Source: Lysobacter soyae (GTDB taxonomy: Bacteria; Pseudomonadota; Gammaproteobacteria; Xanthomonadales; Xanthomonadaceae). From it: a stretch of 64,000 nt of DNA. A program made the position numbers and the translations under genes. This document shows, piece by piece, positions 42,838 through 43,155 of the stretch (position 1 is its first letter; each line of letters opens with the position of its first letter). The stretch spans positions 372,001-436,000 of the forward strand of contig NZ_CP080544.1 in the NCBI RefSeq assembly GCF_019551435.1. The letters run 5' to 3'. The notes beneath the pieces are model-generated. The model made no database searches. It was given only the letters and a program-made list of their open reading frames with translations, and was not told the DNA's origin.

Positions 42838-43155
42838 GGGCCTATAGCTCAATGGTTAGAGCAGAGGACTCATCGAAAGGTGCCGCCACGTGGAAACACG
42901 TGGACGGGAACGGGATGAATTCAAGGAACCCTCAGCGGCGCGCAAGCGGCCGGTGGGAACCCTGAGCCAAGCCGGTGGTACACCACCGGAAGGTGCAGAG
43001 ACTACCTGAGGGCTGAAGTGCCCTTCATAACAGGCTAGAGCGTCCCGCACCCTACCTGCCCGAGGCAGCGGGTGAAGAGATAGTCCGTCCCTGCGGGAAA
43101 TCGTGGGAATAGGCGAATCCTTTGGTTCCAGGTTCGAGTCCTGGTGGGCCCACCA
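42838..43155 (+). tRNA. tRNA-Ile (anticodon CAT, lysidine type) split by a group I intron
   Basis: The exons 42838-42873 (36 nt) and 43116-43155 (40 nt) join to a normal 76-nt cloverleaf: acceptor GGGCCTA/TGGGCCC, D stem GCTC/GAGC, anticodon stem GAGGA/TCCTT with loop CTCATAA, T stem CCAGG/CCTGG with loop TTCGAGT, discriminator A and encoded CCA. The break falls directly after the anticodon CAT. C4-G69 and C5-G68, the 8-nt D loop and TTGGT variable loop are like E. coli tRNA-Ile2, whose C34 becomes lysidine, rather than elongator tRNA-Met. Elongator Met cannot be fully excluded. Confidence 0.9.
42874..43115 (+). ncRNA. Group I self-splicing intron in the tRNA anticodon loop
   Basis: This 242-nt insert folds as a group I ribozyme. 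P1: exon CAU with guide GUG (42880-42882), giving U-G at the 5' splice site. P2: 42886-42892/42897-42903, GAAA loop. P3: 42911-42917/43041-43047. P4/P5-like: 42931-42935/42962-42966 around a hairpin with a GCAA loop. P6: 42972-42978/42983-42989. P7: GACTA 43000-43004 with TAGTC 43081-43085. Also present are a P7.1-like arm (43005-43034), P8 (43056-43068), P9 (43088-43098) and a terminal omega-G at 43115. It encodes no protein. Same host tRNA anticodon, and same CAU/GUG P1, as the Azoarcus intron. Confidence 0.9.

Follow-up and report, generated by a model that had tools for sequence, protein, structure and literature searches.

At positions 42838 to 43155 of the DNA stretch analysed here (the window, 64 kb in length, positions 372001-436000 of the single-contig genome of Lysobacter soyae, 2.135 Mb), a tRNA gene with the anticodon CAT is interrupted by a 242-nt insert, and the locus raises the question of which kind of intron this is and how it came to sit in this gene. 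The classical intron to set beside it is the group I intron of Azoarcus, which belongs to subgroup IC3. We find that the window intron belongs instead to a lineage that bears the peripheral helix P7.1 and is related to phage introns. The best explanation overall, to which we assign a probability of roughly 86%, is a P7.1-type, phage-related, non-IC3 group I intron in the only tRNA-Ile2 gene detected in the genome; this intron probably splices, its host gene is likely to be essential, and phages may have had a part in its spread.

The gene consists of a 36-nt 5' exon (42838-42873, forward strand, like all features below) that ends in the anticodon CAT and a 40-nt 3' exon (43116-43155) that encodes the CCA end, and the two join to a 76-nt tRNA(CAU), just as an initial annotation made from the letters alone had proposed for this Xanthomonadaceae-like host. 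The joined exons are read by ARAGORN as a 76-base tRNA with anticodon cat, named Met by the program, with stems that contain only standard and wobble pairs, and both exons are matched by intact genes of congeners. The insert between them (42874-43115) has no open reading frame (ORF) of its own, as had been noted, and is identified as a group I intron by covariation and by its match to the Rfam model Intron_gpI (RF00028), the check that had been suggested. The match extends from 42862 to 43107 and covers the full model (1-253) with a score of 48.3 bits (E 3e-11 in a 601-base stretch, 2.5e-11 in a search of the whole genome), although this score is 1.7 bits below the gathering score of 50; for that reason the Rfam scan of the whole 64 kb at the gathering score was empty. 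Similarly, ARAGORN run without introns reports zero tRNAs across the window and, with introns allowed, finds 42838-43155 with the intron shifted by two bases and calls the gene tRNA-Arg(ccg); the concern that annotation tools may miss this tRNA was thus well founded. Neither a promoter nor a terminator was detected in a simple scan. The RF00028 match, the congener genes and the covariation together rule out a chance insert or a pseudogene.

The split gene is that of tRNA-Ile2(CAU), based on its CAU anticodon, its Ile2-like body and the presence of a TilS-type gene in the genome. The body of the joined tRNA resembles that of E. coli tRNA-Ile2. Two matches to PF01171 are found in the genome, and the stronger of these (184 bits, in an open frame of 439 aa) fits TilS, a PP-loop protein. 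There are 41 tRNA matches in the genome, 40 of them over the cut-off, and among these 40, as read by ARAGORN, the two other CAT tRNAs are by sequence the elongator and the initiator tRNA-Met, while no Ile(TAT) is present. No second tRNA-Ile2 appears among the 40, and the gene is therefore single-copy, as had been suspected, as far as detection reaches. One tRNA match (L355, 19 bits) reads by eye like the 3' end of a transfer-messenger RNA. The AUA codon is rare but present. The tRNA-Ile2 gene is probably essential. We dropped the lack of tRNA-Ile(GAT) and tRNA-Ala(TGC) as a finding, as the 16S gene, too, is not found in this genome sequence or in those of 5 out of 14 controls; with the rRNA operon not visible in the sequence, nothing can be concluded from a missing tRNA-Ile(GAT).

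The structure of the intron was drawn from the window sequence and then tested on an alignment of 65 distinct tRNA(CAT) introns, of which 32 come from the family and order, 32 were found by a core pattern and one is viral. All of the group I helices that had been listed for this insert are located (P1, P2, P3, P4, P5, P6, P7, P7.1, P8, P9.0 and P9, with the terminal G), and the fold is backed by the alignment: 96.8% of cells pair over the 65 homologues, compared to 34-44% in slid controls, and changes on both sides are seen at 27 of the 65 pairs (354 cells). None of 500 shuffles reached any of five covariation measures; these shuffles ignore relatedness and are not to be read as probabilities. 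The helices that covary are P2, P6a, P7.1a, P8, P9.0 and P9, while P1, P5, P6 and P7 are invariant and P3 and P4 nearly so. The near-invariance of P4, P6 and P7 is due in part to the core search pattern, which partly fixed their bases in 32 of the 65 rows. Thus, P1, P3, P4, P5, P6 and P7, which hardly vary, are supported by conservation and not by covariation.

Helix P1 (42871-42882) pairs the exon CAU (42871-42873) with the guide GUG (42880-42882) and places a U.G pair at the 5' splice site; the GGUG of P1 is invariant in all 65 rows, among them the 32 from the family and order, whose selection did not depend on it, and all 32 have the U-G at the splice site that the initial annotation described. 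P2 (42883-42907) is a hairpin with a GAAA loop in which 7 of 9 pairs are changed on both sides and 84.7% of cells pair, with basal pairs that fail to form in many homologues (45 of 65 for one of these pairs). P3 is formed by CGGGAUG (42911-42917) and CGUCCCG (43041-43047), with 98.7% of cells paired, and P4 by UCAAGG (42921-42926) and its partner at 42960-42965, with an A.C mismatch at 42924/42962 where 63 of the 65 homologues have G-C. The CC/GG base of P5, which with its extension occupies 42929-42957, is paired in all 65 rows, and 6 of 7 pairs of P6a are changed on both sides (P6 and P6a, 42966-42994). P7, which holds the guanosine-binding site, pairs GACUA (43000-43004) with UAGUC (43081-43085) and is invariant in all 65 rows, partly fixed by the pattern. 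The extra P7.1-like arm that had been recognised between P7 and P3' is found at 43005-43034; its outer helix is CCUG/CAGG and its inner helix (P7.1a) AGGGC/GCCCU, with a loop between them on the 3' side only, and the inner helix covaries, with 3 of 5 pairs changed on both sides. In P8 (43048-43074), 3 of 5 pairs are likewise changed on both sides, as are both pairs of P9.0 (43087-43088 with 43113-43114) and 6 of 7 pairs of P9, which has a GAAA loop (43090-43107; P9.0 and P9 together, 43087-43114). The terminal guanosine (omega-G, 43115) is G in each of the 32 rows from the family and order, for which the exon pattern placed no demand on this base; the other 33 rows were chosen with this G.

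The kinship of this intron lies with introns of phages. A blastn search of phage records with the window intron yields 11 partial matches that cover 26-53% of the query; they fall at psbA of S-PM2 and its relatives, and under hypothetical or HNH endonuclease genes in cr55_1 and cr1_1. The psbA introns of S-PM2 and S-SRM01 have the CCUG/CAGG arm, an inner helix that is changed yet still paired, and the same P7, and a homing endonuclease gene lies downstream of the intron in both records. They differ from the window intron in that the host is a phage protein gene and not a tRNA gene, and only 26% of the window intron aligns. In the text available from PMC6083498, F-CphI of S-PM2 is described as cutting the intronless gene, which constitutes collaborative homing. 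Phage introns are said to fit the present subgroups poorly in the available part of a 2025 paper (PMC11878797), and transfer of IA2 introns between phages and hosts is suggested in that of a 2025 database paper (PMC11835236). As a separate observation, a locus in the same class (L071, genome G576) matches RF00028 at 80.6 bits in a gene that resembles, by eye, a T7-type phage DNA polymerase, and has two hairpins between P7 and P3'.

Introns of this type are patchily distributed among bacteria; a search of the family had been proposed in the initial annotation. Of 297 family genomes, 31 match the intron DNA, one of them (G067) weakly and over 25 nt; in the remaining 30, which represent 14 of 54 genera, the intron always resides in tRNA-Ile(CAT) at the same position and ends in G, and the same is true of two genomes from other families of the order. 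The core pattern is present in 22 of 369 class genomes (the own genome included), across 18 of 272 genera, and the exons identify 19 of these hosts, with our own, as tRNA-Ile(CAT) and three as tRNA-His(GTG). A collection of named genomes has the core pattern in at least 119 stretches; among the matches listed, 59 of the 119 are strict split tRNA(CAT) genes, 56 of these with an Ile2-like anticodon stem and eight identical to family or order rows. The same 119 include tRNAs for Asn, Asp, His and Tyr whose introns have arms (by eye or ARAGORN), and 23 introns with a short J7/3 (the stretch between P7 and P3'), many in Bacteroidales tRNA-Leu. The core pattern was chosen from these introns, and the counts are therefore lower limits that are silent on the share of IC3 introns; some arm lengths in this collection are too short, as the parser took a P3' match inside the arm. 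No match to the intron was found in plasmids. Three further loci (L123, L147, L156) resemble split tRNA(CAT) genes by eye but failed the strict parser, and a contig labelled Candidatus Pacearchaeota (L104) has the core pattern inside a tRNA called Asn by ARAGORN, which could reflect contamination or an archaeal tRNA group I intron.

Viral contigs carry introns of this type at the very same site. Of 120 viral stretches with the core pattern 80 were examined, and in four contigs (L232, L253, L267, L278) the intron is inside a tRNA gene. A pattern that spans exon and intron is found in six viral contigs, five of which have a split tRNA(CAT) gene (L278, L341, L343, L345, L346) with the intron at the same position as in the window gene; the sixth (L344) was rejected as chance, as were three other viral matches (L339, L340, L342). 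One of the five contigs (L346) has a terminase (106 bits) and an SbcC-like gene. A TilS-like gene is found 0.8 kb from the split tRNA in L278 (111.7 bits) and 43 nt from it in L343 (103.0 bits; cut-off 93.6). HNH-like ORFs are found in L278 (weak at 33.9 bits, overlapping the 5' exon by 15 nt), in L345 (27.2 with PHROGs and 28.8 with Pfam, cut-off 21, on the other strand and overlapping the 3' end of the tRNA) and in L341 (65.3 bits, 0.8 kb from the split tRNA and cut by the end of the locus), while none was recognised among those ORFs of L343 and L346 that were tested, and a comparison of the 226-aa ORF of L278 with the PDB gave nothing useful. Among bacterial contigs picked from the 119, 6 of 11 have an HNH-like frame 5' of the core, either within the intron or next to it; the five ORFs tested, those of L131, L160, L163, L196 and L211, match HNH families of PHROGs at 74-102 bits, and Pfam reports no HNH family for them. 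Four of the phage tRNA(CAT) introns are 71-82% identical over parts to their best cellular matches, and thus no recent transfer has been caught. Viral contigs L232, L253 and L267 have P7.1-type introns in other tRNA genes, with a seemingly second interrupted tRNA directly after the first in L267, and bacterial contig L131 has a tRNA-Asn with a 550-nt intron (ARAGORN) whose arm is unlike that of the window intron.

Within the genus, the history of the site can be compared with that of its neighbour rpoD. A search of 17 genomes (the own included) with the joined exons finds the gene uninterrupted in 12, of which five (G002, G003, G004, G006, G014) have a 76-nt gene 100% identical to the joined exons, and split in three (the own, G007 and G011); the state of G008 and G015 is unassigned. 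In all three split and in 11 of the 12 intact genomes the contig with the tRNA also has rpoD upstream of it, at a distance of between 14 bp and 2.6 kb (112 bp in the window), while in G010 rpoD and the tRNA are on different contigs. In G011, the nearest relative, the split tRNA is separated from rpoD by some 2.6 kb (1036445-1039084, L042) that contain two or more small ORFs; relocation of the tRNA was rejected there, as rpoD is found upstream at that distance. An rpoD tree of 18 genomes, 17 of them with a known intron state, was made without G008 (no rpoD match) and G014 (rpoD in pieces). The intron requires at least three changes on this tree, with G007, which has the intron, grouped with the intronless G002 (98/99); gain and loss cannot be told apart there. 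The tRNA with its intron in G011 is 98.3% identical to that of the window over 346 bp, compared to 90% for rpoD, and constraint on the RNA may be the reason.

These observations bear on the rival that survives best, although we consider it unlikely, namely purely vertical inheritance with many losses and no role for phages, which would still be compatible with the core of our explanation. The intron keeps the same locus beside rpoD within the genus, its identity to the introns of G007 and G011 ranks as it does in rpoD, the three changes on the rpoD tree can be losses, and a single cellular clade is not rejected (see below). However, the scattered occurrence in 30 family genomes and 22 class genomes, three of the latter with tRNA-His as host, the nesting of G007 among intronless sisters, the same type of intron in viral tRNA(CAT) genes and the related introns with HNH ORFs all speak against it. 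The horizontal spread that had been suggested is plausible but unproved.

A second explanation, that this is the known Azoarcus-type IC3 intron of tRNA-Ile which has gained a peripheral arm, requires comparison with IC3 introns. We scanned 60 relatives and 398 genomes of the phylum with RF00028, which was built independently of this intron. The phylum scan yielded 36 matches, 30 of them with loci (one our own), and 20 of the other 29 were parsed; of those that were not (L071, L077, L080, L086, L087, L088, L089, L092 and L093, the last not extracted), six are short-armed by eye, and ARAGORN found no tRNA at L071 and L087. Eighteen of the 20 parsed loci, and also L040 from the scan of the 60 relatives, have 3 nt between P7 and P3', compared to 36-39 nt in the remaining two parsed loci, a tRNA-Ile (L079) and a tRNA-Arg (L072, anticodon TCT by eye), both of which have the arm. 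Thus, the P7.1/P7.1a arm is absent from 19 of 19 parsed IC3-type tRNA introns in these scans, while the corresponding stretch in the window intron is 36 nt. One locus in the same class (L083) has a tRNA-Ile(CAT) intron without the arm and with a J7/3 of 3 nt. This intron we take to be Azoarcus-like, and it serves as a stand-in for that type.

The core, with the arm removed, separates the two types. Our core tree has 68 hand-picked rows and 128 columns (24 of 264 sequences failed the core parser). On one side (98/88) are 15 IC3-type tRNA introns, L083 and a cyanobacterial tRNA-Arg intron; 48 P7.1 rows and all phage rows are on one side of a branch with support of 99/88; three Bacteroidales tRNA-Leu introns lie between the two. 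In the approximately unbiased (AU) test, a clade of ten Xanthomonadaceae-side rows with L083 was rejected (p-AU 0.0005), while the Xanthomonadaceae-side set was not rejected as a clade with other gammaproteobacteria (0.378) or alone (0.104); the clades for this test were chosen with the tree already in view, and the branch of L083 is long. Besides the arm, P4, J3/4 and J6/7 differ between the window intron and L083 or the IC3 rows. The bacterial IC3-type introns in tRNA-Leu and tRNA-Arg likewise insert in the anticodon loop and match RF00028, but their parsed rows have a J7/3 of 3 nt, a P4 like UUCGGGG and GUGU in J6/7. Blastn of the window intron against 21 IC3-type loci gives no match at E up to 10, whereas the same intron matched phage introns. 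A comparison with subgroup IC3 thus places the window intron outside it, with its core off the IC3 side and a J7/3 of 36 nt as opposed to 3 nt.

Gain of an arm by an Azoarcus-type intron is therefore very unlikely. In its favor are the shared tRNA, site, CAU/GUG P1 and similar size, the occurrence of the Azoarcus-like type at this site in the same class (L083), and an intron on the IC3 side (the cyanobacterial tRNA-Arg intron L108) with a 35-nt insert at the arm position. These are outweighed by the rejected clade with L083, by core differences that are not in the arm alone, and by the empty blastn search. We take the Azoarcus sp. BH72 intron to sit at the same position, with a CAU/GUG P1, no ORF and a similar size. 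What holds of the comparison with Azoarcus that the initial annotation drew is the site and the P1, but the window intron is not the Azoarcus type plus an arm, since its core falls with those of phage introns. Judged from the sequences, the site and P1 that the two have in common look like the result of separate occupations of a single spot. The BH72 intron is described as an IC3 intron with tRNA-Ile as its host, as at the window site, in the available text of PMC3984707. Acidovorax and Burkholderia are recorded as having group I introns in tRNA-Ile2 in PMC8450103, whose available text gives no subgroup and no phage link and does not mention Xanthomonadaceae; Burkholderiales contigs in our collection (L103, L105, L139) carry the P7.1 type at this site. 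Separately, cyanobacterial tRNA-Arg introns of Okeania and Trichodesmium (L108, L141, L155, L218) have a 35-38-nt insert between P7 and P3'.

Least probable of all is a decayed, non-splicing relic in a tRNA that is no longer needed: the P4 A.C mismatch, seen only in this genome and G011, would fit such a relic, but the gene is the only tRNA-Ile2 detected, AUA is used in 4 of six genes counted (8 codons in all), the exons are 100% identical to the intact genes of five congeners and the intron is 98% identical in G011 while rpoD is 90% identical.

Several points nevertheless weigh against a phage-related, splicing intron of separate origin. Splicing is predicted from sequence, and the P4 mismatch, which is found in 2 of the 65 introns, could make this copy splice less well. 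Neither the intron nor the three window neighbours tested (sigma-70/rpoD, catalase and D-Tyr-tRNA deacylase) has a nuclease gene, and the viral status of four of the five contigs with split tRNA(CAT) genes depends largely on their IMG/VR classification. The core tree leaves 35 of its 65 inner branches open, its bootstrap is unsettled, and L083 and several phage rows have long branches. A single clade of all cellular tRNA-Ile introns, L083 included, is only marginal in the AU test (p 0.044), and the test does not reject a clade that sets the P7.1 tRNA-Ile introns of cells apart from phages (p 0.145), so that more than one direction and number of exchanges between phages and hosts would fit the tree. 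Finally, the insert in L108 means that the arm alone is not diagnostic and that the core carries the argument, and the Bacteroidales tRNA-Leu introns, with a short J7/3, have the J6/7 sequence GGUGC too.

Because its core is complete, a P7.1-type, phage-related intron in tRNA-Ile2 would most likely act by the usual two-step splicing of group I introns. The precursor would fold, and an exogenous guanosine bound in P7 would attack after the CAU paired to GUG; the freed 5' exon would then attack after the omega-G, to yield the joined 76-nt tRNA, which TilS would modify such that it reads AUA. We infer that the intron splices in this way in vivo. With no nuclease in the intron or the tested neighbours, the intron has probably been inherited as a resident of this genome and would be unable to move on its own. 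Three tRNAs of the genome offer CAU and the intron is only in Ile2, for which reason homing or recombination at the DNA level would account for its spread better than reverse splicing guided by three pairs. The Ile2 site is not exclusive, however: in Clostridium, P7.1-type introns are found in tRNAs that resemble initiator tRNA-fMet by eye and that ARAGORN calls Pyl (L110, L126). Phage tRNA genes with nuclease genes nearby could spread the intron by homing or recombination. We tentatively propose, at somewhat less than even odds, that phages with their own tRNA-Ile2(CAU), some with TilS and HNH, are both a reservoir and a vehicle from which P7.1 introns home into the single, conserved tRNA-Ile2 gene of the host, by collaborative homing at an anticodon and independently of the IC3 lineage.

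The idea of a phage vector is not itself new, given that the recA and nrd introns of Bacillus cereus are likened to phage introns in the available text of the review by Hausner, Hafez and Edgell (PMC3984707). According to the same text, every phage intron seen until 2014 was in a protein gene, although phages have many tRNA genes, and evidence for the movement of introns between bacterial species is scarce. Neither a P7.1-type intron of tRNA-Ile nor a group I intron in the tRNA gene of a phage was described in what our literature search covered, although this search did not extend to subscription papers and supplements and hence does not establish absence from print. Two things seem new: that a tRNA-Ile2 intron is assigned to the P7.1-bearing, phage-related lineage, and that introns of this type occur in tRNA(CAT) genes of phages, together with TilS-like and HNH-like neighbours.

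For annotation, the locus means that a seemingly essential tRNA escapes both ARAGORN when run without introns and Rfam when applied at its gathering score. Both points of the 2014 review, the restriction to protein genes and the scarcity of movement between species, become testable with the split viral tRNA(CAT) genes. For the biology of the group, our results suggest that two intron lineages of separate descent use the anticodon of tRNA-Ile(CAU), which is among the best-studied ribozyme sites, and that the phage-related one occupies tRNA-Ile(CAU) in 19 of the 369 sampled genomes of the class.
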